This document shows, one piece after another, positions 29,940-41,564 of a DNA stretch of 64,000 nucleotides (within the stretch, counting starts at the first letter, position 1; each line of letters begins with the position of its first letter). This DNA is from an uncultured Acidobacteriia bacterium (lineage in GTDB: Bacteria; Acidobacteriota; Terriglobia; Bryobacterales; Bryobacteraceae): NCBI GenBank assembly GCA_903851195.1, contig CAINNJ010000008.1, positions 124,001 through 188,000 on the forward strand, read 5' to 3'. A program made the translations under genes and the position numbers. The notes beneath the pieces are model-generated. The model was not told the origin of the DNA, ran no database searches, and saw only the letters and a program-made list of their open reading frames with translations.

Positions 29940-31313
29940 ATGGACGCGGACTGCGCTCAATTCCGGCTGTCACTCAACGGAACCGCCGTGCGAATTCACG
30001 GTCTGCCGCCGCAGACCACGCTGCTGGATTTCGTCCGATCCCAGGGCCTGACCGGCGCGAAGGAAGGCTGCGCCGAAGGAGAATGCGGTGCTTGTGCCGT
30101 CCTCCTGATTTCCCAGTCTCCCGGTGAAAATCGCGCGGTCTGCCGCGCCGTCAACAGCTGTCTGGTGCCCCTCCCCGCCGTCGCGGGACGCGAAGTCTTC
30201 ACCGTCGAAGGGCTGTCCGAAAACGGAACCCTGGCCGAAGTGCAGAACGCCATGGCGGCCGCAGGCGGATCCCAATGCGGATATTGCACGCCTGGCTTCG
30301 TCGTCAGTATGTTCGCGGAACAGCACCGTTGCGACCCGGACCATCGGGACCTTCACGCGCTCGGCGGAAACCTCTGCCGCTGTACCGGCTACCGTCCCAT
30401 CCGCGACGCGTTCCTGTCCCTCGGCCACACTCCCGAAGGGCGGATTCAGCAGCGCCTGCTCGAGCCCGCGTCGCCTCCCCAACGGCTGCGGTACCGGGCC
30501 AACAACGCCGGATTCTCTACCCCGCTCTCGCTGGATGAGGCCCTGCGCCTGGCAGCCGAAACGCCGGATTCCCGCTTCGTCGCCGGCAACACAGACCTCG
30601 GCGTCGTCACCAACCTCCGCGACACCCGCTTCCCGGACCTCATCAGCCTGCAAGCCGTGCCGGAGCTAAAGCACTTTACCGAAACCCCGGATGCCGTTGA
30701 AATCGGCGCGGCCCTCACCCTCACCGAAATCGGAGAACGCTGGCAGACCGCACCGCCGGTATTCCGCGAATGGCTTCCTTTATTCGCCTCGCTGCTGATC
30801 CGGAACAGCGCCACGCTTGGAGGCAATCTCGCCACCGCGTCCCCCATCGGCGACTCCGCGCCCCTGCTCCTCGCGCTCGACGCCGCAGTGCGCATCGCAT
30901 CGTTGCAGGGCGACCGCCTCATCCCCCTGACGGAATTCTTCTGCGGCTACCGGAAAACCGCGCTCAACCCCGGAGAAATCCTCTCGTCCGTCCGGATCCC
31001 GAAACCGTTCCCGCACACCGCGCGTTTCTTCAAAGTGGCGAAGCGGTCCCTCGACGACATCAGCACCGTGGCCGTGTGCATCGCAATTTCCGGCCGCGGC
31101 GCACGCATCGCTCTGGGAGGTGTCGCCGCAACGCCGCTCCGCGTCCTCGAAGCGGAGGACTTCCTGAGCAACGGCGATATAGAAGGCGCACAACAAGCCC
31201 TGGAGCACACCTTGCACCCCCTGAGCGACCACCGCGGCTCCGCGGCCTATCGCCTCGCCATGGCTAAAAGCCTCCTCGCGAAATTCCGCGCCGAACACGA
31301 GGGCCAGATCTAA
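29940..31313 (+). CDS. xdhA: Xanthine dehydrogenase, FAD and iron-sulfur subunit
   Basis: A 457-residue fusion of the small redox domains of xanthine dehydrogenase. The plant-type [2Fe-2S] domain has Cys44, Cys49, Cys52 and Cys74; the second [2Fe-2S] domain has Cys113 and Cys116 (SQCGYCTPG) plus Cys146 and Cys148 (LCRCTGYRP). An FAD-binding domain (about 190-360; RFVAGNTDLGVV, SATLGGNLATASPIGD) and a CO-dehydrogenase flavoprotein C-terminal domain follow. It passes electrons from the molybdenum subunit, encoded immediately downstream, to NAD or another acceptor. The two-subunit XdhA/XdhB arrangement is the common bacterial form. No XdhC maturation gene is in the window. First gene of the purine-degradation operon. 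Confidence 0.93.
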   Translation: MDADCAQFRLSLNGTAVRIHGLPPQTTLLDFVRSQGLTGAKEGCAEGECGACAVLLISQSPGENRAVCRAVNSCLVPLPAVAGREVFTVEGLSENGTLAEVQNAMAAAGGSQCGYCTPGFVVSMFAEQHRCDPDHRDLHALGGNLCRCTGYRPIRDAFLSLGHTPEGRIQQRLLEPASPPQRLRYRANNAGFSTPLSLDEALRLAAETPDSRFVAGNTDLGVVTNLRDTRFPDLISLQAVPELKHFTETPDAVEIGAALTLTEIGERWQTAPPVFREWLPLFASLLIRNSATLGGNLATASPIGDSAPLLLALDAAVRIASLQGDRLIPLTEFFCGYRKTALNPGEILSSVRIPKPFPHTARFFKVAKRSLDDISTVAVCIAISGRGARIALGGVAATPLRVLEAEDFLSNGDIEGAQQALEHTLHPLSDHRGSAAYRLAMAKSLLAKFRAEHEGQI

Positions 31314-33539
31314 ATGGTGCACGAAAGCGCCACCGCGCACGTCACGGGCGAAGCCCTTTACACAGACGATCTGCTCGCGCGCTTCCCCGGCCTTCTGCAC
31401 GCATGGCCTGTCCTCTCGCCGCACGCCCACGCACTCCTGCTTCATCTGAACTGCGCCCCGGCGCTCGAAGAACCGGGCGTCGTCGCCACCCTGGCCGCCG
31501 AAGATGTCCCCGGCGAAGGCAACTCCGGCGCGAACCGCCACGATGAACCTCTCTTCCCGGACGAAGTAACGTTCCACTCGCAACCCGTTGCCTGGGTTCT
31601 CGCGGATTCCCTGGAAGCGGCCAAACTCGGCGCCGCCCGCGTGGAAGCCGGGTACAAGCCTCTTCCCCACATCCTTTCCATCGCCGACGCCATCGGCGCG
31701 CAAAGCTTCCACTCCGGGCCTCACCGCATTCAGCGCGGCAACTCCACGGAAGCCATCGACGCCGCCCCCCACGCGCTTTCCGGCGAACTGCACATCGGCG
31801 GCCAGGAGCACTTCTATCTCGAAACGCAGTGCGCCATTTCAAGGCTCGATGACTCCGGCGGCATCCTCGTCGATTCCTCCACCCAGCACCCCAGCGAAAC
31901 CCAGGAAGTCGTCGCGCGGGTTCTCGGCATCCCGCGCCACCTCGTTACCGTGCAGTGCCTCCGCATGGGCGGCGCGTTCGGCGGTAAAGAAGTCCAGGCA
32001 AATCCGTGGGCGGCCATCGCGGCACTGGGCACGTGGAAAACCCAACGCCCCGTCCGTGTCCGCCTGCCACGCTGGCTCGACATGGCGCTCACCGGCAAGC
32101 GCCACCCCTTCTTCGCGAAATTCCGCGCCGGCTTCGAAGACGATGGACGCCTCCGCGGCATCGAACTGCAACTCTACTCGGACGGCGGCTGGAGCCTCGA
32201 CCTCTCCGACCCCGTCCTCTGGCGCGCCCTCTTCCACTGCGACAACGCCTACCTCATCCCCGCCCTCGACGCCACCGGCTGGGTCTGCCAGACCAACAAG
32301 ACCTCCCAAACCGCCTTCCGCGGCTTTGGCGGACCCCAGGGCATGATCGTGATCGAAGACATTCTCGATCGCATCGCGCGCCGCCTCGGACTCGCGCCGC
32401 ACCTGGTTCGCGAGCGCAACTTCTACCGCGAAGGCGATGTGACCCACTACGGCCAAACGGTGAAAGATGCGTCCCGCATCGCCCGCATCTGGGACGAACT
32501 GAAAATCTCCAGCGATTTCGACCAGCGCCGCGAAGCCATCGCCCAGTACAACCGGACGCATCGCCACACCAAACGCGGTCTCGCCATCACCCCCGTGAAA
32601 TTCGGTATCTCCTTCACCGCCACCTTCTTCAACCAGGCCGGCGCTCTGGTGCTCGTCTACCGCGATGGCAGCGTCCAGGTGAACCACGGCGGTACGGAAA
32701 TGGGTCAGGGACTGCACACCAAGATCCGGCGCATCGCCGCCGAAGCCCTGGGCGTGGATCCCGAAGCCGTCCGCATCATGACCACCAGCACCGACAAAGT
32801 CCCGAATACCTCCGCCACGGCCGCCTCCGCCGGCACGGACCTCAACGGTGCAGCGGTCTTCGACGCCTGCCGCCAGATCAAAGAACGCCTCCGCGGGGTC
32901 GAACAGGATCTCGCCGCCGAAGGACAACTGAACCTGACGTTCGCACAGCTAACGGAAGCCGCCTATCGCCGCCGCGTTTCCCTCTTCGCCCACGGTTTCT
33001 ACCGCACCCCCGATATCCACTTCGACCCCAAAACGGCCACCGGCAAACCCTTCCACTACTTCGCTTACGGCGCCGCCGTGGCCGAAGTGGAGATCGACGG
33101 CTTCACCGGCCAGAACCGTACCCTGCGCGTAGACATCCTGCAGGATGTTGGCGATTCCCTCGCGCCCGTCGTGGACCGCGGCCAGGTGGAAGGCGGCTTC
33201 ATCCAGGGCCTCGGCTGGCTGACCCTGGAAGAACTGATCTGGGACGAGAACGGTCGCCTTGCCACCGGCGGCGCGTCCACTTATAAACTGCCCTCGTGGC
33301 CCGAAATGCCGCCCGTCTTCAACGTTGCGTTCCTCTCGCGCGCCGCCGAACCGGACGTCATCCACGGCAGCAAAGCCATCGGCGAACCGCCGCTGATGCT
33401 TGCCTTCGCGGTGCGCGAGGCCATCCGCGACGCCATCGCCGCTTTCGGAGCGGACAGCCCGTCCGGCGGCGTCGTCACCCTCGATAGCCCCGCCACGCCC
33501 GAGCGAATCTTCTGGGCCTTACAGCGAGCCGCCAACTGA
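31314..33539 (+). CDS. xdhB: Xanthine dehydrogenase, molybdenum subunit
   Basis: A 741-residue molybdopterin subunit oxidising hypoxanthine and xanthine to urate. Typical motifs: ATGEALYTDD-like start (HVTGEALYTDDLL), MGGAFGGKE, TAFRGFGGPQGM, GTEMGQGLHTK, QGLGWLTLEEL and near the end AIGEPPLML, whose Glu is the catalytic base equivalent. The ATG follows the xdhA stop directly; its own stop overlaps the guanine deaminase start (TGATG). A neighbouring xanthine permease is not seen. Confidence 0.93.
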   Translation: MVHESATAHVTGEALYTDDLLARFPGLLHAWPVLSPHAHALLLHLNCAPALEEPGVVATLAAEDVPGEGNSGANRHDEPLFPDEVTFHSQPVAWVLADSLEAAKLGAARVEAGYKPLPHILSIADAIGAQSFHSGPHRIQRGNSTEAIDAAPHALSGELHIGGQEHFYLETQCAISRLDDSGGILVDSSTQHPSETQEVVARVLGIPRHLVTVQCLRMGGAFGGKEVQANPWAAIAALGTWKTQRPVRVRLPRWLDMALTGKRHPFFAKFRAGFEDDGRLRGIELQLYSDGGWSLDLSDPVLWRALFHCDNAYLIPALDATGWVCQTNKTSQTAFRGFGGPQGMIVIEDILDRIARRLGLAPHLVRERNFYREGDVTHYGQTVKDASRIARIWDELKISSDFDQRREAIAQYNRTHRHTKRGLAITPVKFGISFTATFFNQAGALVLVYRDGSVQVNHGGTEMGQGLHTKIRRIAAEALGVDPEAVRIMTTSTDKVPNTSATAASAGTDLNGAAVFDACRQIKERLRGVEQDLAAEGQLNLTFAQLTEAAYRRRVSLFAHGFYRTPDIHFDPKTATGKPFHYFAYGAAVAEVEIDGFTGQNRTLRVDILQDVGDSLAPVVDRGQVEGGFIQGLGWLTLEELIWDENGRLATGGASTYKLPSWPEMPPVFNVAFLSRAAEPDVIHGSKAIGEPPLMLAFAVREAIRDAIAAFGADSPSGGVVTLDSPATPERIFWALQRAAN

Positions 33540-34840
33540 TGGAAATCCTGCGCGCCTGCATCTTCCACACCCCGCGGAACGCCTTCGATCATCCGGACTC
33601 GCTGATCGCGCTGCCGGACGGAGGCCTGCTGACAAGCGAAGGCAAAGTGCTCGCCTGTGGGGACTTCAGCGCTGTCCGCGCAGCCTCGCCCGAAGCACCT
33701 GTTCGCGACCTCCGCGGCAGCTACCTTCTGCCCGGCTTCATCGACACCCATATTCATTTCCCCCAGGTCCGCATTTTGGGAGGCCTCGGTTACTCCCTGC
33801 TCGACTGGCTCGACCACCTGACCCTGCCCGAAGAAGCCCGCCTGTCTGACGACACCTATGCCACGGTCATCGCACGGGAATTCGTGCACCAACTCGCCGC
33901 CCACGGCACCACCACATCCCTCGTCTTCGGAGCGCATTTTGCGCCCGCCATGGCCGCGCTGTTCGAAGCCGCCGCGACATCCGGTCTGCGCGTCATCAGC
34001 GGCCTGGTTCTTGCCGACCGCCTCCTGCGCCCGGAACTGCACGTCACTCCGGAACAGGCCTTCGAAGCCTCAAAATTACTCCTCGGTCGCTACCACGGCC
34101 ACGGCCGGATCCGCTACGCCGTGATCCCGCGATTCGCGTTATCCGCCAGCGAGCCGATGCTCGAAGTCTGCCACACCCTGCTGCGCGAAAACCCCACGCT
34201 GCACTTCACCTCGCACATCAACGAGAATCCGCTCGAAGTCACCGAGGTCGCGCGCCTCTTCCCGTGGGCTGCCGATTACCTCGCCGTCTACGAACGCTTC
34301 GGACTCATCGGCCGCCGCTCCGTCCTCGCCCACAACGTTCAGGCAACCGCCCCCGAACTGCACCGCCTCGCCGCCAGCCAGTGTTCCATCGCGCACTGCC
34401 CGGCGAGCAACGCAGCCCTGGGCAGTGGCATCTTTCCCATGCGCCGTCACCTCGAAGCGCGAGTCCATTTCGCCCTCGGCACGGACGTCGGTGGCGGCAC
34501 CGGCTTCGGCATGATGAAGGAAGCGCTGCTCGCCTATCTGCTGCAGCGAGTCGCGCCGGATCCCCTCACCCTCAGCCCCGCGCAGATGCTCTACCTCGCC
34601 ACAAGAGCCGGCGCGGAAGCCCTGGCACTCGACGAAACCCTCGGCGATTTCACCCCCGGAAAATCCGCGGACTTCGTCTGCCTGAATCCCCCCGGCGACT
34701 CTGCATTGGCCGGCGTGCTCAGGCGCCTCGAAGATCCCGAACGAATCCTCGCCGCCATCCTGACCATGGCGGGCCCCGAAACCATCCGTGAAGTCCGCGT
34801 CGCCGGAGACCTGATCTTTGAAAATCAACTCACTCACTAA
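33539..34840 (+). CDS. guaD: Guanine deaminase
   Basis: A 433-residue zinc amidohydrolase converting guanine to xanthine and ammonia, feeding the adjacent xanthine dehydrogenase. Metal ligands of the amidohydrolase fold: His71 and His73 (DTHIHFPQ), His226 with Glu229 (SHINEN), His265 (LAHN) and Asp316 (GTDVGGG). The DTHIHFPQ and DVGGG forms are those of GuaD rather than cytosine or adenosine deaminases. Start fixed by the TGATG overlap with xdhB; its end overlaps uraD by 23 nt. Confidence 0.92.
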   Translation: MEILRACIFHTPRNAFDHPDSLIALPDGGLLTSEGKVLACGDFSAVRAASPEAPVRDLRGSYLLPGFIDTHIHFPQVRILGGLGYSLLDWLDHLTLPEEARLSDDTYATVIAREFVHQLAAHGTTTSLVFGAHFAPAMAALFEAAATSGLRVISGLVLADRLLRPELHVTPEQAFEASKLLLGRYHGHGRIRYAVIPRFALSASEPMLEVCHTLLRENPTLHFTSHINENPLEVTEVARLFPWAADYLAVYERFGLIGRRSVLAHNVQATAPELHRLAASQCSIAHCPASNAALGSGIFPMRRHLEARVHFALGTDVGGGTGFGMMKEALLAYLLQRVAPDPLTLSPAQMLYLATRAGAEALALDETLGDFTPGKSADFVCLNPPGDSALAGVLRRLEDPERILAAILTMAGPETIREVRVAGDLIFENQLTH

Positions 34841-35300
34841 GGAAGAATTCGTCTCGGCGCTGGGCTGGATATTCGAGCACTCCCCCTGGGTGGCGGAACG
34901 CGCCTGGGCCGGCCGCCCTTTCCAGTCTCGCGAGGAACTCCACGCCCACTTGACGCAAATCGTCGCAAAGGCCAGCTACGAGGAACAACTGGCCTTACTC
35001 CGCGCGCATCCCGACCTCGGCACGAAAGCTCAAGTCAGCCCCATTTCCGCCCGGGAGCAAGCAGGCGTCGGACTCGACAACCTCACCGAATCCGAATATG
35101 AGCACCTCTTACAACTGAATGCCGAATACAAATCCCGCTTCGGCTTCCCGTTTCTCTATGCCGTGAAGGGCAGTGATAAATTTCAAATACTGGCGGCGCT
35201 GGAACGGCGGCTCCAATCGTCGCCGGAGACCGAATTTCAAACCGCCCTCGAACAGGTTTACCGGATCGCGCTCTTCCGGCTGGAAAATACGAACTTATGA
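34818..35300 (+). CDS. uraD: OHCU decarboxylase
   Basis: A 160-residue all-helical enzyme decarboxylating 2-oxo-4-hydroxy-4-carboxy-5-ureidoimidazoline to S-allantoin, which prevents racemic breakdown. The signature HPDLG (64-68) contains catalytic His64, and SREQAGVGLD-type sequence (SAREQAGVGLDNLTESEYEHL) follows, as in the family. The ATG lies within guaD and the stop overlaps the urate oxidase start (ATGA), so expression is coupled to both. Cytoplasmic; no peroxisome-like tag or signal. Confidence 0.93.
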   Translation: MKINSLTKEEFVSALGWIFEHSPWVAERAWAGRPFQSREELHAHLTQIVAKASYEEQLALLRAHPDLGTKAQVSPISAREQAGVGLDNLTESEYEHLLQLNAEYKSRFGFPFLYAVKGSDKFQILAALERRLQSSPETEFQTALEQVYRIALFRLENTNL

Positions 35301-36151
35301 ACAACTTCGCAAGCGGTCCGAAACAGAGTTACTACGGCAAAGGCGATGTCATCGCCTACCGCCTGCTGCGGGAAGGTCAGCAGGCCGCCAATGAAAGTCC
35401 GGTCTTCGGCGTCAATGCAAAAATCCTGATCTACGGCGACGCCTTCTGGCCCACTTACACCACCGGCGACAACACCGGTCTCATCGCCACGGACTCAATG
35501 AAGAATTTCATCCAGCGCGAGACCCTCAAGTTCACGGGTTACGATCTGGAGTCTTACTGTCAGTTCCTCGCCTCGAAGTTCCTGAGCATCTACCCGCAAG
35601 CCACCGGCGTGCAACTCTCCGCCGAAGAAATCCCGTATGATCTGCTGGCCGGCGCATGGCAGCCCGGCGGCCCGGAACGCGCCCATGCCTGCATCGAACT
35701 GGTGCGCGACGGCGAAGCCATTCAGACGGCCGAAGCGCGTTCCGGCATCGGCGGCTTCCGCCTGCTCCGTCTGAACGGCAGCGCCTTCAAGGGCTTTGTG
35801 CGCGACGAGTACACCACACTCCCCGACATCGCCAACCGCCCGCTCCACATGTGGCTCGATCTCGACTGGACCTACACCAGCACGGACGCCGCCTTCAGCA
35901 GCGGCCTGATCACGAAACAGGTCCGCAAAGCCGTGCACGAAGTCTTCGGCAACTTCACTTCGGGCAGCATCCAGCAGATCATTTATCAGATCGGCGAGAA
36001 GATGCTGGCCACCATCCCGGCCATTGCCGAAATCCGCCTCGAAGCCAACAACCGCACCTGGGATACTATCGCCGAACAGGGCGATTCGATCGGCGTTTAC
36101 ACCGATGCCCGGCCTCCGTACGGCTGCCTGGGCCTCACAATGAAGAGGTAG
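35297..36151 (+). CDS. Urate oxidase (uricase)
   Basis: A 284-residue cofactor-free uricase turning urate and O2 into 5-hydroxyisourate and H2O2. The catalytic Lys-Thr pair is visible: Lys15 (YYGKGDV) and Thr65 (ATDSMKN). The two tandem T-fold halves (about 10-140 and 150-284) match normal length. The ending LTMKR lacks a targeting signal, as expected for a bacterial cytoplasmic enzyme. ATGA overlap with uraD. Its H2O2 is relevant to the AhpD-like protein at the end of the operon. Confidence 0.93.
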   Translation: MNNFASGPKQSYYGKGDVIAYRLLREGQQAANESPVFGVNAKILIYGDAFWPTYTTGDNTGLIATDSMKNFIQRETLKFTGYDLESYCQFLASKFLSIYPQATGVQLSAEEIPYDLLAGAWQPGGPERAHACIELVRDGEAIQTAEARSGIGGFRLLRLNGSAFKGFVRDEYTTLPDIANRPLHMWLDLDWTYTSTDAAFSSGLITKQVRKAVHEVFGNFTSGSIQQIIYQIGEKMLATIPAIAEIRLEANNRTWDTIAEQGDSIGVYTDARPPYGCLGLTMKR

Positions 36152-36152
36152 A

Positions 36153-36482
36153 CTGGCGCGCATTTCCACGCACGTTCTCGACATCGCCAGGGGCCGTCCA
36201 GCCGCGGGTATCGCCGTCAGTCTGACCTCCGCCGGCCACCCCGGGGCCTTCGCCACAACAAACGCCGACGGCCGTACCGATGCACCTCTGGTCAGCGAAC
36301 CGGAACTGCAGTCCGGCGCGTGGGAACTGCGCTTCAACGTAGGCGACTACTTTCGCGCCAATGGAGACGAAGCCTTCTTCGAACAAATCACCATCAGCTT
36401 CGTGGTCCGTGACGGGTCCGCCAACCACCACGTACCGCTGCTGCTCGCGCCGCACGCCTACAGCACGTACCGGGGCTCATGA
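36153..36482 (+). CDS. hiuH: 5-hydroxyisourate hydrolase, probable CTG start
   Basis: A 109-residue transthyretin-like enzyme hydrolysing 5-hydroxyisourate to OHCU. The frame reads ISTHVLDIARGRPAAG at the N-terminus and ends in YRGS, the C-terminal tetrapeptide that marks the family. Catalytic positions: His7 (STHVLD), Arg41 (NADGR), His93 (NHHVPLLL) and Ser109. No ATG, GTG or TTG is available at the right place: the frame opens after a TGA at 36141-36143. CTG at 36153-36155 gives the expected N-terminus (M-A-R-I-S-T-H), 4 nt after AGAGG; ATT at 36162 is the alternative. Its stop overlaps allC (ATGA). It fills the one step otherwise missing from the operon. Confidence 0.88.
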   Translation: MARISTHVLDIARGRPAAGIAVSLTSAGHPGAFATTNADGRTDAPLVSEPELQSGAWELRFNVGDYFRANGDEAFFEQITISFVVRDGSANHHVPLLLAPHAYSTYRGS

Positions 36483-37648
36483 ACAAACTCGCGCAATGGA
36501 TCCTCGATTGCTGCCGGGACCTCGCGAAGTTCACCGAAGAGCCCGGCCGCATCACCCGCACATTCCTCTCGCCGCCCATGAAGCAGGCGCACGCTTTTCT
36601 GGGCAGCTGGATGGAAGAGATCGGCATGCGCGTCAGCCTCGACGCTGCCGGCAACCTGCGCGCTCTCTACGGCCGTGAAGACGCGCCCCGCCTCATCATC
36701 GGCTCGCACCTCGACACCGTGCCCAATGCCGGAGCCTTCGATGGTATTCTCGGCGTTGCTCTGGGCATCGCGATGGCCGAACTCCAGCCGGATCTCGCCC
36801 TCGAAGTCATTGGCTTTTCCGAAGAAGAAGGCGTCCGCTTCGGCGTGCCGTTCATCGGCAGCAAGGCAGTTACCGGCGAACTCGATCAGGCACTCCTGGC
36901 GCGTACCGACGCCCACGGCATTTCCGTCACGGAAGCCATCCGGGCCTTTGGCCTGAACCTCGCCGAACTCCCCGCCGCGCGCTTTTCACCCCACGCGATC
37001 GGCTATTTCGAATTCCACATCGAGCAGGGCCCGGTTCTGGAAAGCCTGTGCCTTCCACTGGGCGTTGTCGAAGCCATCGCCGGCCAAAGCCGATGGACCG
37101 TCGGCTTTACCGGCCAGGCCAATCACGCCGGTACCACGCCGATGAACCTCCGCCGCGACGCCCTGGTCTCCGCCGCGCGCTGGATCCTCAACGTGGAATC
37201 CTACGCCGCCGCCGTGCCGGGCCTTGTCGCCACGGTAGGCGCGCTGACCGTGTCCCCCAATGCCGGAAACGTCATCCCGGGCGAAGTTCGCGCCAGCCTC
37301 GATGTCCGCCATCCCGACGACGCGGTGCGCCTACATGCCGTGCGTGAAATCCTCGCGAAAGCCCCCGCCGAGGCCATAGAACGGCTCAACCAGAGCGCGG
37401 TGCGCATGGACGAAGCCCTGACCACGGCTCTCGCCGACGCAGTCGGCCCCGGCGCGCATCGCATGACCAGCGGCGCCGGCCATGACGCCATGATCTTCGC
37501 CCCGCACCTCCCCTCAACCATGCTGTTTCTGCGAAGCCCCGGCGGCATCAGCCACCACCCCGACGAAGCCGTGCTCCTCGAAGACGTGGAAGCCGCCCTG
37601 ATCGCCGGCGCCCGCTTCATCGAAACTCTGGGAGCCGTTCATGCCTGA
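36479..37648 (+). CDS. allC: Allantoate amidohydrolase
   Basis: A 389-residue M20-family metallohydrolase converting allantoate to ureidoglycine, CO2 and ammonia. Metal ligands: His77 (GSHLDTVPNAG), Asp88 (FDGILGV), Glu116/Glu117 (SEEEG), a His in FEFHIEQGPVLE and a His in SHHPDE near the end. The GSHLDTVPNAGAFDG form is that of AllC and related N-carbamoyl hydrolases; a hydantoinase-type carbamoylase is the alternative, but the operon decides for allantoate. ATGA overlap with hiuH; its end overlaps allB by 8 nt. Confidence 0.88.
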   Translation: MNKLAQWILDCCRDLAKFTEEPGRITRTFLSPPMKQAHAFLGSWMEEIGMRVSLDAAGNLRALYGREDAPRLIIGSHLDTVPNAGAFDGILGVALGIAMAELQPDLALEVIGFSEEEGVRFGVPFIGSKAVTGELDQALLARTDAHGISVTEAIRAFGLNLAELPAARFSPHAIGYFEFHIEQGPVLESLCLPLGVVEAIAGQSRWTVGFTGQANHAGTTPMNLRRDALVSAARWILNVESYAAAVPGLVATVGALTVSPNAGNVIPGEVRASLDVRHPDDAVRLHAVREILAKAPAEAIERLNQSAVRMDEALTTALADAVGPGAHRMTSGAGHDAMIFAPHLPSTMLFLRSPGGISHHPDEAVLLEDVEAALIAGARFIETLGAVHA

Positions 37649-38996
37649 CCTGCTCATACGAGGCGGCGCGGTCGTCACGCACTCCGGCCTCCTTGCGGCG
37701 GACATCGCCATCGAAGACGGCTGCATCGCCGCCATCGGCCCCGATCTCCCCGGCGCCGCCAACGAAATCGACGCCTGCGGTCTGGTCGTCCTGCCCGGCC
37801 TGATCGACGTCCACGTGCACTTCAACGAGCCCGGCCGCACGGACTGGGAAGGCGCGCGCACCGGCAGCCACGCTCTCGCGGCGGGCGGCGGAACCACGTT
37901 CCTCGACATGCCGCTCAACTCCGCGCCCTGCACCACGGACGCAGCCGCATTCGACCAGAAGCGTGCCGCCGTGGAAGCGGCATCCATCGCCGATTTCGCG
38001 CTGTGGGGCGGCCTGATTCCCGGCAACCTGCCCCAAATGGCGGAACTCGCCGACCGTGGCGTCATCGGCTTCAAAGCCTTCCTCTGCGATTCCGGCCTGC
38101 CCGAGTTCCCCCGCGCCGACGACCTGACCCTCTTCGAAGGCATGCAGGAAGCCGCCCGCCTTGGCCTCCCGGTCGCGGTCCATGCCGAAAGCGACGAGAT
38201 CACGCAGCGCCTCTCCGCGCGTATGCAGGCTCTGGGCCGCCACGATATCCCGGCATTCCTCGAATCCCGCCCCGTCATCGCCGAAGTCGAAGCGATCCAT
38301 CGCGCGGGCCTGCTCGCCCGCCAGACCGGCTGCAGTCTCCACATCGTTCACATCAGTTCCGGCAGCGGTATCGCCGCCGCGCTCGAAGCGCGGGCATCCG
38401 GCGCTGACATCACCATCGAAACCTGTCCGCACTACCTGTTTTTCTCCGAAGCAGATCTCGAACAAATCGGCGCTCTCGCGAAATGCGCGCCGCCGCTGCG
38501 CCACCGCGCCGAACAGGATTCCCTCTGGGCCGCTCTGCTGCGCGGCGAAGTCGGTATCGTCGGTTCCGATCACTCCCCCTGCCCGCCGGAGTTAAAAACA
38601 TTCGAGAACTTTTTCCAAATCTGGGGAGGCATCGCCGGCGTTCAATCCACCCTGCCCGTGCTGCTCGACGCAGGCCACCACCAGCGCGGACTCCCTCTCG
38701 AACAGATCGCCGCGCTCACCGCCACCAACGGCGCAAACCGCTTCCGCCTCCCCCTAAAAGGAACCGTCACCGTCGGCGCCGATGCCGACCTCACCCTCAT
38801 CGACCTCAACGCCACCACCCACATCGACGACCGCACCCTGCTGCACCGGCACCGCGCCAGCCCGTACTCCGGGCACAGCCTGCGCGGCGCGATTACGAAG
38901 ACGCTCCGCCGGGGTGAGATCATCTGCTCCAATGGCGCCATCACCGCCCGAACCAACGGCCGATTCATCCGGCCACACGGAAACCGCAATGCATAA
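37641..38996 (+). CDS. allB: Allantoinase
   Basis: A 451-residue binuclear amidohydrolase opening the allantoin ring to allantoate. Metal ligands His58 and His60 (DVHVHFNEPGR), and Lys145 (GFKAFLC), which is carboxylated to bridge the metals; VHAES, HIVHISS and GSDHSPC supply the remaining ligands. The GFKAFLC segment separates it from dihydroorotase and hydantoinase. Starts inside the end of allC and ends over the start of allE (8-nt overlaps). Confidence 0.94.
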   Translation: MPDLLIRGGAVVTHSGLLAADIAIEDGCIAAIGPDLPGAANEIDACGLVVLPGLIDVHVHFNEPGRTDWEGARTGSHALAAGGGTTFLDMPLNSAPCTTDAAAFDQKRAAVEAASIADFALWGGLIPGNLPQMAELADRGVIGFKAFLCDSGLPEFPRADDLTLFEGMQEAARLGLPVAVHAESDEITQRLSARMQALGRHDIPAFLESRPVIAEVEAIHRAGLLARQTGCSLHIVHISSGSGIAAALEARASGADITIETCPHYLFFSEADLEQIGALAKCAPPLRHRAEQDSLWAALLRGEVGIVGSDHSPCPPELKTFENFFQIWGGIAGVQSTLPVLLDAGHHQRGLPLEQIAALTATNGANRFRLPLKGTVTVGADADLTLIDLNATTHIDDRTLLHRHRASPYSGHSLRGAITKTLRRGEIICSNGAITARTNGRFIRPHGNRNA

Positions 38997-39711
38997 CCTC
39001 GGACACACCCGCAGCAGCAGCCAGCGCGACCATTTCCTCCTCACCCCGGACACCTTCGTCCGCGCGCCGCTGCCTGGCATGACGAACGCCACCGCCATCG
39101 TCCACGCCGCCCCCGCGCACGGAGCCGCCTTCACCGAATACACCGTGGAATTCGAGCCCGGCGGCACGATGCAGGCAGGTGCGGCCCAGACGTTTCTCTA
39201 CGTTCTGGATGGTTCCGTCAACGTCAATGGGCAGACGCTCTCGCCCGCGCAGTACGCCTACATCCCCGCTAACCGCGGCGCCCGCATCCTCTCCGAATCC
39301 GGCGGCCGCGCCGTGGTCATCGAAAAGCCGCTTCTGGACCTCAACTCCTCCACTCTCGAACCGTTCACGGGCGATGAACGTACCCTCGCGCCCAGGCCCC
39401 TCGGCGGCGACGAAGCCCTCGAAGTCCGCACCCTGATCCCCCCCGACTTCGCCTTCGATTTCGCCGTGAACACCATGACTTTTCTCCCCGGCGCCACCCT
39501 GCCGATGGTCGAAATCCACGTCATGGAACACGGCCTTCTCATGGTCGAAGGCGGCGGCATCTATCGCCTCAACGACCACTGGTATCCCGTCACCGCCGGC
39601 GACTTCATCTGGATGGGCCCCTACTGCCCCCAATGGTTCGGCGCGCTGGGCAAGAAGCCCGCAAAATACCTGCTGTACAAAGACTGGAACCGGCATCCGC
39701 TCCACCGCTAA
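38989..39711 (+). CDS. allE: (S)-ureidoglycine aminohydrolase
   Basis: A 240-residue bicupin Mn2+ enzyme converting S-ureidoglycine to S-ureidoglycolate and ammonia. Two cupin halves are seen (about 45-105, QTFLYVLDGSVNVNG; about 150-225, LPMVEIHVMEHGLLMVEGGGIYRL), the second with the metal-binding Glu-His-His pattern. The N-terminus MHNLGHTRSS resembles YlbA. The frame remains open upstream, but the ATG at 38989 is supported by the family start and the 8-nt overlap with allB. Confidence 0.92.
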   Translation: MHNLGHTRSSSQRDHFLLTPDTFVRAPLPGMTNATAIVHAAPAHGAAFTEYTVEFEPGGTMQAGAAQTFLYVLDGSVNVNGQTLSPAQYAYIPANRGARILSESGGRAVVIEKPLLDLNSSTLEPFTGDERTLAPRPLGGDEALEVRTLIPPDFAFDFAVNTMTFLPGATLPMVEIHVMEHGLLMVEGGGIYRLNDHWYPVTAGDFIWMGPYCPQWFGALGKKPAKYLLYKDWNRHPLHR

Positions 39712-39723
39712 GAACGCACCATC

Positions 39724-40965
39724 ATGAAAATCGACATCGATCAGAACCGACTCACCCGCGAACTCAACGAACTCGCCGCCTTCTCCGACGTCCCCGCCCC
39801 CGCCGTCAGCCGCATCGTCTTCTCCGACCAGGATCTGCGCGCCCGCGCCTGGCTCAAAGACCTCTGCGCCAAGGCGAATCTCGACGTAAGGGAAGACGCC
39901 GTCGGCAACACTTTCGCCCGCTGGCACGGTTCCGAACCCGCCGCCCCCGCCGTCGGCACGGGCTCCCATATCGACGCCATTCCGCACTCCGGCCGCTACG
40001 ACGGCACGGTCGGCGTGCTCGGCGGCCTCGAAGCCATACGCGCTCTTCAGGCCAGCGGATTCCAGCCTCGCCGTTCCCTCGAACTCCTGCTGTTTACTTC
40101 CGAAGAGCCCACCCGCTTCGGACTCGGCTGCCTCGGCTCCCGCCTGCTCGCCGGAACGCTGGACCCCGCCGCCGACGAAACGCTCCGCGACAGCGAAGGT
40201 TCTTCGCTGCAGGAAATCCGCACCCGCGCGGGCTTCCACGGACCCCTGTCGTCCGTGCTTCTCACGCCCGGCTACTACGATGCCTTCGTCGAACTTCACA
40301 TCGAACAGGGCCCGCTTCTCGAAAACCGGGGCGTGCCGCTCGGAGCCGTGACCGCCATCGCCGCGCCCGCCAGCCTCCGCATCGACATTCAGGGACAGGG
40401 CGGACACGCCGGCGCCGTCCTCATGCCCGACCGCCACGACGCCTTTCTCGCCGCCGCCGAGATCGCTCTCGCGCTGGAACAGGCCGCCCGCTCCACCGGA
40501 GCGATTGACAGCGTCGCCACCACCGGCGTCTGCGATATCTTTCCCCGCGTCATCAACGGCATCCCCAGCCGCGTCAATCTCGAAGCCGACATCCGCGATA
40601 TCGACGCCGACCGCCGCGACCGCATGCTCGTTCATCTCGAACAAACCTGCACGGAGATCGCCGCCCGTCGCGGTGTCACCATCACACCCGAATTCATCAA
40701 TCGTGACGCCCCGGCCACCTGCGATCCCCGCATCGTCTCCGCCATTGCCGCCGTCTGCGACGAGAACGGCTTCCGCTTCGACCGCATGGTGAGCCGCGCC
40801 TATCACGACTCTCTGTTCATGTCCCGCATTTGCCCCGCCGCGATGCTCTTCATCCCCTGCCGCGCGGGCGTGAGCCATCTCCCCGACGAGTACTCCTCGC
40901 CCGAAGCCATCGCCCAGGGAACGCTGGTCCTCGCGCAAACCCTCGCCAAACTGGCAAACTCGTAG
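39724..40965 (+). CDS. Probable ureidoglycolate amidohydrolase
   Basis: A 413-residue second M20-family hydrolase, distinct from the AllC-like one. Ligands: His82 and Asp93 (GSHIDAIPHSGRYDG), Glu127/Glu128 (FTSEEPTRFG), a His in ELHIEQGPLLE, and HLPDEYSS near the end. The combination GSHIDAIP-SGRYDG-VGVLGGLEAI and FTSEEPTRFGLGCLGSR matches plant-type ureidoglycolate amidohydrolase, which releases glyoxylate, CO2 and two ammonia. This would finish purine breakdown without the ureidoglycolate dehydrogenase or lyase used elsewhere. A second allantoate hydrolase or carbamoylase is the alternative. It starts 12 bases after allE. Confidence 0.8.
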   Translation: MKIDIDQNRLTRELNELAAFSDVPAPAVSRIVFSDQDLRARAWLKDLCAKANLDVREDAVGNTFARWHGSEPAAPAVGTGSHIDAIPHSGRYDGTVGVLGGLEAIRALQASGFQPRRSLELLLFTSEEPTRFGLGCLGSRLLAGTLDPAADETLRDSEGSSLQEIRTRAGFHGPLSSVLLTPGYYDAFVELHIEQGPLLENRGVPLGAVTAIAAPASLRIDIQGQGGHAGAVLMPDRHDAFLAAAEIALALEQAARSTGAIDSVATTGVCDIFPRVINGIPSRVNLEADIRDIDADRRDRMLVHLEQTCTEIAARRGVTITPEFINRDAPATCDPRIVSAIAAVCDENGFRFDRMVSRAYHDSLFMSRICPAAMLFIPCRAGVSHLPDEYSSPEAIAQGTLVLAQTLAKLANS

Positions 40966-40967
40966 AT

Positions 40968-41564
40968 ATGGAACCGATGTTCTTGCCCGAAGTCGAAAAC
41001 AACCCGCAACCGGGTCCCTTTGCAGATCTGCTGCGGCAAATGCAAAGCGCCGGCGGCGAATACCCGCAAATCTGGCACCTTTTCGCCTATAAGCCGGCAG
41101 CTACCGAGCACCTCGCCCGCTTCACGCAGGAGATTTTGCGCGAACCTTCCCCGCTGAGTCCCGGCTTTCGCGAACTGATCGCCGCATGGACCGCCGCCGG
41201 GAACCACTGCCCGTTCTGAACGAAATCGCACGCCGCGGTCGCGGCGGAACTACTCGGGGATGAAGCGCTGGTGGAGAGCGTCCTGCTCGACATGGAAGCC
41301 TCGCCCTTGCCCGAAGACCAGAAGGCCCTGCTCCGGTTTGTCACGAAGATGAACCACCAGACGGCGCACATCACAGCCGCTGATCTGCAGTCCCTGCGCG
41401 ATCTGGGCTGGACGGACGAGGCGCTCTATTACGCCATCACCGTCTGCGCACTGTTCAATTTCTACACCCGCTGGGTGGATGCCACCGGCGTGCATGCCAT
41501 GTCCGACGAAGCCCACCGCAAGCGCGGCAAGACCAGCGCGAGCACCGGTTACATCAAAAAATAA
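40968..41564 (+). CDS. AhpD-like peroxidase-family protein, candidate selenoprotein (TGA = Sec84)
   Basis: One frame runs 198 codons from ATG at 40968 to TAA at 41562, broken only by a TGA at 41217-41219. On both sides the translation is a normal carboxymuconolactone-decarboxylase/AhpD-type protein (HLFAYKPAATEHLARFTQEIL before; AITVCALFNFYTRWVDATGVH after). In AhpD the redox motif is CxxC-xxx-His. Here it reads Cys81-Pro-Phe-TGA-Thr-Lys-Ser-His88, so the TGA takes the peroxidatic Cys position and would give CxxU. A hairpin at 41231-41246 has SECIS-like spacing. AhpD-like proteins with CxxU have been reported among bacterial selenoproteins. Two bases after the ureidoglycolate hydrolase, it ends the purine operon; probable role is removing peroxide from urate oxidation. 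A nonsense mutation or sequencing error is the alternative. Confidence 0.78.
41217..41246 (+). promoter_or_regulatory. SECIS-like hairpin directly after the in-frame TGA
   Basis: The arms 41231-41236 (CGCCGC) and 41241-41246 (GCGGCG) form a perfect 6-bp stem closing a GGTC loop (41237-41240). The loop starts 17 nt after the TGA and opens with G, within the spacing and loop pattern known for bacterial SECIS elements. GC-rich coding DNA makes such hairpins common, so this supports but does not prove selenocysteine insertion. Confidence 0.5.

Follow-up and report, generated by a model that had tools for sequence, protein, structure and literature searches.

An AhpD-like gene with a probable selenocysteine codon at the end of an acidobacterial purine-degradation cluster

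The frame at positions 40968-41564 (+) of the 64,000-nucleotide acidobacterial stretch of DNA analysed here (the window) almost certainly codes for an AhpD-like selenoprotein (family TIGR01926), the insertion of selenocysteine (Sec) at an in-frame TGA being deduced from comparative evidence. AhpD-like selenoproteins with a CxxU motif are already known, as the first-pass annotation of this DNA had stated: a 2026 review names an "AhpD-like protein, TIGR01926, CxxU" among the known prokaryotic selenoproteins (PMC13188914), and a 2005 survey of the Sargasso Sea reported 27 CxxU sequences in an AhpD-like COG2128 family (PMC1088965). For Acidobacteria, three selenoprotein families have been counted (PMC1794560), and an acidobacterium with three known selenoprotein genes has been described (PMC12013277). 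The family itself is not new, and what sets the window copy apart is chiefly its place at the end of a purine-breakdown cluster; an open-access-weighted literature search of titles returned none on an acidobacterial set of AhpD-like selenoproteins or on a link with purines. From its position, a connection of this selenoenzyme with the breakdown of purines can be put to the test.

Translation yields one frame of 198 residues followed by TAA, and its sole internal stop is the TGA at 41217-41219 (+), residue 84, in agreement with the earlier description. The active-site motif reads Cys81-Pro-Phe-TGA84-Thr-Lys-Ser-His88, so that the TGA occupies the second-cysteine position of the AhpD/CMD CxxC motif, again as first described. 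Open reading frame calling with table 11 breaks the frame into 40830-41219 and 41271-41564, which is the split that had been predicted for standard annotation; annotation of this kind, without selenoprotein rules, halves the enzyme and loses the catalytic residue, here and in each TGA-bearing relative. The TIGR01926 profile (peroxidase-related enzyme) aligns over the TGA, from residue 6 to residue 174 (6-174), and scores 92.3 bits against a curated cut-off of 81.8, and the CMD profile PF02627 matches residues 43-95 with 37.2 bits (gathering score 23); both halves of the split frame therefore represent one protein family, as had been claimed. Within the window, Rfam at gathering thresholds gave no match and ARAGORN found no tRNA. 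The features of the gene are as follows.

40968..41564 (+): AhpD-like (TIGR01926) gene, very probably for a selenoprotein, 198 codons read through TGA (translation, profile matches, homologue alignment)
41172..41174 (+): Glu69 codon, by spacing the counterpart of Glu118 of M. tuberculosis AhpD (translation, alignments, PMC3141380)
41208..41210 (+): Cys81 codon, partner of Sec84 (translation, alignments)
41217..41219 (+): in-frame TGA, proposed selenocysteine 84, second position of CxxC (translation, homologue column)
41229..41231 (+): His88 codon, invariant in both protein alignments, A1 and A2 (translation, alignments)
41231..41246 (+): SECIS-like hairpin CGCCGC-GGUC-GCGGCG, with a six-pair stem (41231-41236/41241-41246) and apical GGUC (41237-41240) (folding, covariation, published constraints)

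Homologues were collected by a search of 101 genomes, part of the places being fetched and the site being read where tblastn aligned. Among the 77 homologues read, the column of residue 84 holds TGA in 51 and a Cys codon in 26; this count takes identical aligned sequences once and omits one fragment without the column, three loci without a usable alignment (L093, L094, L104) and about ten unfetched TGA-bearing distant places. Close homologues (at least 49% identity, n = 46) have 39 TGA and 7 TGC/TGT codons, and distant ones (n = 31) have 12 and 19 in the same column. No stop occurs elsewhere in the aligned part of any of the 77; over a longer search span, three distant places (G090:C16, G091:C16 and G064) contain a further in-frame stop. 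A close TGA copy is present in 37 of the 101 genomes examined, the window genome included, and two of these 37 carry two copies; once the gene is recognised, many acidobacterial genomes are seen to have a redox enzyme with selenocysteine. A separate scan of named genomes found a single TGA in this column in the best 80 of 239 relatives, loci that were chosen by similarity, come partly from the same genomes as the set of 101 and do not give an unbiased rate. A sample of 297 genomes from across the phylum includes 10 with a relative at E 1e-30 or better; of the 11 places concerned, nine have one TGA and two have no stop. Outside the phylum, a TGA copy with 66% identity resides on plasmid 2 of Gemmatirosa kalamazoonensis (Gemmatimonadota).

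An early TGA usually marks a gene that has decayed, and the table-11 calls do split the frame, but a pseudogene or sequencing error, with a nonsense mutation landing by chance in the active-site codon, is scarcely credible and was rejected on the conservation of the TGA across species, in most close homologues, where the frame is open before and after it, and in all of the best 80 of 239 relatives (partly from the same genomes), and on the codon constraint downstream of it that is described below. The first-pass argument that random nonsense mutation would rarely strike this codon is borne out by the close and distant counts alike; the relatives have either TGA or Cys exactly at residue 84, not stops at random positions, and the recurrence of the same TGA in many other genomes rules out a sequencing error. 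When the refuting outcomes named in the first-pass annotation were looked for, none spoke against its reading.

A gene tree of 71 rows requires six changes between Sec and Cys, at least four of them forced by well supported branches; because long branches may join falsely in this tree, the near clade alone was relied on. In the tree, the Cys forms of three genomes (G032, G054 and G048) are nested in a supported clade of Sec forms, an arrangement that fits loss of Sec. Two loci, L070 (G032) and L074 (G048), represent genomes with both Sec and Cys copies of the close clade, the Cys copies being nested among the Sec forms, which suggests that Sec may be lost from one copy while the machinery stays. 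A separate, distant TGA-bearing clade from another family of the order (L080, L082, L084, L085 and L086) reads CHYU, then VD-S/A-HWHDL.

The AhpD-like gene is the last of a co-directional run of purine-degradation genes that extends from 29940 to 41564 and includes, upstream of it, the following.

29940-31313 and 31314-33539 (+): xanthine-dehydrogenase-type subunits (profile matches)
33539-34840 (+): amidohydrolase (profile match)
34827..35285 (+): OHCU decarboxylase (PF09349 match span, C8:158827-159285)
35297..36151 (+): urate oxidase, the H2O2 source in the proposed role (TIGR03383)
36162..36476 (+): transthyretin-like protein of hydroxyisourate hydrolase type (PF00576 match span, C8:160162-160476)
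36479..37648 (+): allantoate amidohydrolase (NF006775, just over cut-off)
37641..38996 (+): allantoinase AllB (TIGR03178)
38989..39711 (+): (S)-ureidoglycine aminohydrolase (TIGR03214)
39724..40965 (+): M20 hydantoinase/carbamoylase-family amidase, its end separated by 2 bases from the start of the selenoprotein gene (TIGR01879)

By family matches the run is apparently complete, with the M20 amidase (39724..40965) inferred to act as a ureidoglycolate or allantoate amidohydrolase, and 29940-41564 may well be a single transcript. The position within the cluster, and a CMD family named after a decarboxylase, might invite the idea that the AhpD-like protein replaces a missing hydroxyisourate hydrolase or OHCU decarboxylase, but this is very improbable and was rejected, as matches to both candidate enzymes (PF00576 and PF09349) lie in the same cluster.

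Directly after the UGA, the transcript can form the SECIS-like hairpin listed above, the apical loop of which lies 17 nt from the UGA, with a minimum free energy (MFE) of -12.4 kcal/mol. The published model of the bacterial SECIS element specifies a loop of 3-9 nt, a stem of 4-16 bp, a spacing of 16-37 nt, an MFE of -7.5 or lower and, among the first two bases of the loop, one G or more, in most cases with G or U next to it on the 3' side (PMC13188914). With a 4-nt loop, six pairs, G as the second loop base and the distance and energy just given, the window hairpin lies within all of these constraints. In 102 distinct close sequences the loop is GGUC in 53, AGUU in 39 and CGGU, AGGU or GGGU in 10; the second base is G in all of them, and the outer loop bases covary as G-C or A-U in most. 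The full six pairs are present in 35 of the 39 close TGA genes, as against 7.1 on average and 16 at most over 1000 synonymous recodings; none of the seven close Cys genes has them all. Among the distant TGA homologues read, different hairpins occur at or near the same place; in the CHYU clade, the loop of the strongest hairpin lies about 24 nt past the UGA, as against 17.

Covariation was evaluated over 80 distinct rows. In the six-pair stem 98.8% of the cells are paired, and there are 10 two-sided changes as against 1.0 in shuffled alignments (0/500 as high), with a covariation score of 0.103 against 0.070 (0/500). When the partner strand is slid by up to three columns, at most 81.5% of the cells are paired; the slide of -2 has a covariation score of 0.143, above the 0.103 of the true register, yet only 50% of its cells pair. 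The number of pairs with two-sided changes and the number of pair types were equalled by 99 of the 500 shuffles. With the outer loop bases (positions 21-24) as an added pair, there are 44 two-sided cells against 14.6 (0/500), and the covariation score rises to 0.227, the highest of all registers. Synonymous constraint over 105 columns is strongest at hairpin codons 92, 93 and 89, in that order, with the other hairpin codons 91, 88 and 90 ranking 10th, 15th and 30th. The folding-energy signal of single genes against synonymous recoding is weak: for the 39 nt past the codon, 4 of 51 TGA genes reach p <= 0.05 (mean z -0.85), compared with 1 of 24 TGC genes (mean z +0.35).

Like the AhpD-like CxxU selenoprotein of the review (example MCB9421940.1), the window gene scores over the TIGR01926 cut-off, has the CxxU motif and is provided with a SECIS-like hairpin with an apical G directly after the UGA; unlike it, the window member is acidobacterial and ends a purine-degradation cluster. 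This comparison was made by profile, motif and hairpin. The gene also resembles NF041238 (AhpD_rel_CFYUT) and NF041047 (GSU3128), CMD/AhpD relatives that are modelled as (seleno)proteins and are both entered as CxxU in the review (PMC13188914), but it is a member of neither, with 42.7 bits against a cut-off of 175 for the former and 14.7 against 110 for the latter.

The window genome possesses the machinery that such a gene would need, and the search that the first-pass annotation had proposed recovered all of it: profile matches to selA (491 bits), selB (347 bits) and selD (356 bits), and a tRNA-Sec with a UCA anticodon (69 bits, gathering score 47), which ARAGORN likewise calls as tRNA-SeC, anticodon tca. 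The selD gene itself (L041:1501-2421, -) has an in-frame TGA near its start, in the context AAGUASK, and SelD of this genome is probably a selenoprotein too. Across the 101 genomes, with the machinery called strictly (selB over cut-off or tRNA-Sec of at least 55 bits), a close TGA copy occurs in 35 of 91 genomes with the machinery versus 2 of 10 without (p 0.32). The two exceptions, G024 and G063, have selB in pieces; counting them among the genomes with the machinery, a step taken after the data had been seen, changes the figures to 37 of 93 and 0 of 8 (p 0.025). The association is suggestive only. Two genomes each contain two tRNA-Sec-like genes, all scoring over 60 bits: G084 (C2:1112064-1112158 and 1115713-1115807) and G009 (C100:257-347 and C126:70431-70521). 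At two loci, AhpD-like genes share a contig with tRNA-Sec and selB at a distance of no more than about 5 kb: with TGA in L065 (G008:C120), and one Cys and one TGA gene in L083 (G098:C258).

The residue inserted at a UGA cannot be told from sequence alone, which leaves some room for a reading of the codon as Trp or Cys, by reassignment of the code or by plain read-through, with no selenium involved. We regard this as very improbable in view of the full Sec system, the SECIS-like hairpin and the 77 homologues, which alternate solely between TGA and Cys codons. As TGA is the stop codon of 6 of the 16 window genes checked, the code is not reassigned, and that form of the explanation was rejected. 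Under selenocysteine insertion, ribosomes would arrive at UGA 84, where SelB carrying Sec-tRNA(UCA) would bind the downstream hairpin and insert selenocysteine, and translation would run on to the TAA at 41562-41564.

The predicted structure of the product (AF2, pLDDT 93.8, pTM 0.91) is all-helical. Its best Foldseek matches in the PDB are 6k40, 2prr, 3c1l and 2pfx, at E 2.1e-8 or lower, with 2oyo also among the solved relatives. By Foldseek and profile, the model shares its fold with the TIGR01926-type structures 2pfx, 2prr, 3c1l and 2oyo and with D. radiodurans AhpD (6k40), at 21-27% identity; unlike the window gene, 2pfx and 6k40 both have Cys at the position of the TGA. The four residues Glu69, Cys81, Sec84 and His88, spaced by 12, 3 and 4 positions, are invariant in both protein alignments; in a wider set, Cys81 is absent from two Cys-form genes of G057 and from two distant ones. 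The same spacing, Glu-x11-Cys-x2-Cys-x3-His, is found in M. tuberculosis AhpD, the proton relay of which consists of Glu118, Cys130, His132, Cys133 and His137 (PMC3141380). Unlike that enzyme, with which the structural score is weak (TMq 0.43-0.52), the window protein has Phe83 ahead of Sec84 in place of His132 or Tyr, so that the fifth relay residue is missing; this residue before the second Cys (His/Tyr) is not absolutely conserved (PMC3141380).

By its family the product is likely to be a thiol/selenol peroxidase or disulfide reductase. In the predicted fold, Sec84 and Cys81 would form the CxxU pair, and Glu69 and His88 are spaced from them as in the AhpD relay. By analogy with AhpD and its family, the Sec84 selenolate would most likely attack a peroxide or disulfide, Cys81 would then resolve it as a selenenylsulfide, and a cellular dithiol would reduce the selenenylsulfide again.

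Of 80 fetched loci, of which 77 extend at least 1.3 kb upstream of the gene and 62 extend 6 kb, two show a link to purines, and both belong to the same genus as the window: L105 has amidohydrolase and M20 neighbours on a contig that ends 3.7 kb upstream, and L106 has the genes from uricase to M20. The genes of these two loci (G009 and G011) and the window gene form a clade with support 100/93. At 2 of 80 loci, a general tie of the AhpD-like selenoprotein to purine breakdown was rejected, and uricase H2O2 cannot be the general substrate.

The window genome has a second TGA copy (L045:7808-8398, -; G000:C58:165810-166397), 63% identical, that is flanked by genes for an Oar-type outer-membrane receptor and an MFS transporter; a PAP2-domain protein is encoded further out. 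Among the 80 loci, 28 have an MFS gene directly downstream on the same strand (25 of these belong to the 74 loci with 1.5 kb or more of downstream sequence), 12 have an Oar-type receptor upstream (each of them one of the 76 loci with 1.5 kb of upstream sequence), and eight have both. The same Oar and MFS queries matched at 34 and 29 AhpD-like loci, respectively, in 887 kb, and in a small control of 18 partly overlapping loci (92 kb, retrieved by Sec-machinery queries) they gave one Oar match and no MFS match.

These surroundings bear on the strongest alternative, in which the gene does encode a selenoprotein but one that serves a peroxiredoxin as its AhpD-type disulfide reductase, or acts in a redox step tied to a compound imported through the Oar and MFS proteins, and not in the removal of peroxide from purine breakdown. 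We give it a chance only a little short of even. It draws on the order Oar-type receptor, AhpD-U, MFS transporter around the second Sec copy, on the frequency of a downstream MFS gene, on the resemblance of the fold to that of the debrominase Bmp8, by which other reductions are possible, and on the M. tuberculosis precedent, where AhpD is an adaptor for AhpC (PMC3141380). Against it stands the location of the window copy itself in a purine cluster. The adaptor form of this alternative is made somewhat less likely by the 1-cysPrx_C profile, which had no match in the window genome, unlike the M. tuberculosis system, and as a control query matched in 8 of 14 genomes. This profile (PF10417) presumably marks AhpC.

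The purine-linked role, which we put forward tentatively and hold to be less likely than not, is that in one acidobacterial genus a copy of the AhpD-like selenoprotein left the receptor/transporter neighbourhood of other copies and was recruited as the final enzyme in purine breakdown, where it would be a dedicated peroxidase for the H2O2 of urate oxidase. Within that genus, the position at the end of a cluster that includes uricase would make uricase H2O2 the likeliest substrate, although the presence of a catalase in the window genome and the rarity of purine loci count against this role. If it were true, a dedicated selenium peroxidase would tie selenium supply to the scavenging of nitrogen from purines. 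The placement in the purine cluster seems to reflect the later relocation of a paralogue, the order of events being our reconstruction. Elsewhere in the window genome, a 33-kb contig (G000:C37; L046 and L047) carries five CxxC AhpD-like paralogues, which adjoin Oar-type receptors, MFS transporters and an ASPIC/UnbV FG-GAP protein; the Cys version of the enzyme is here part of a cassette that is repeated.
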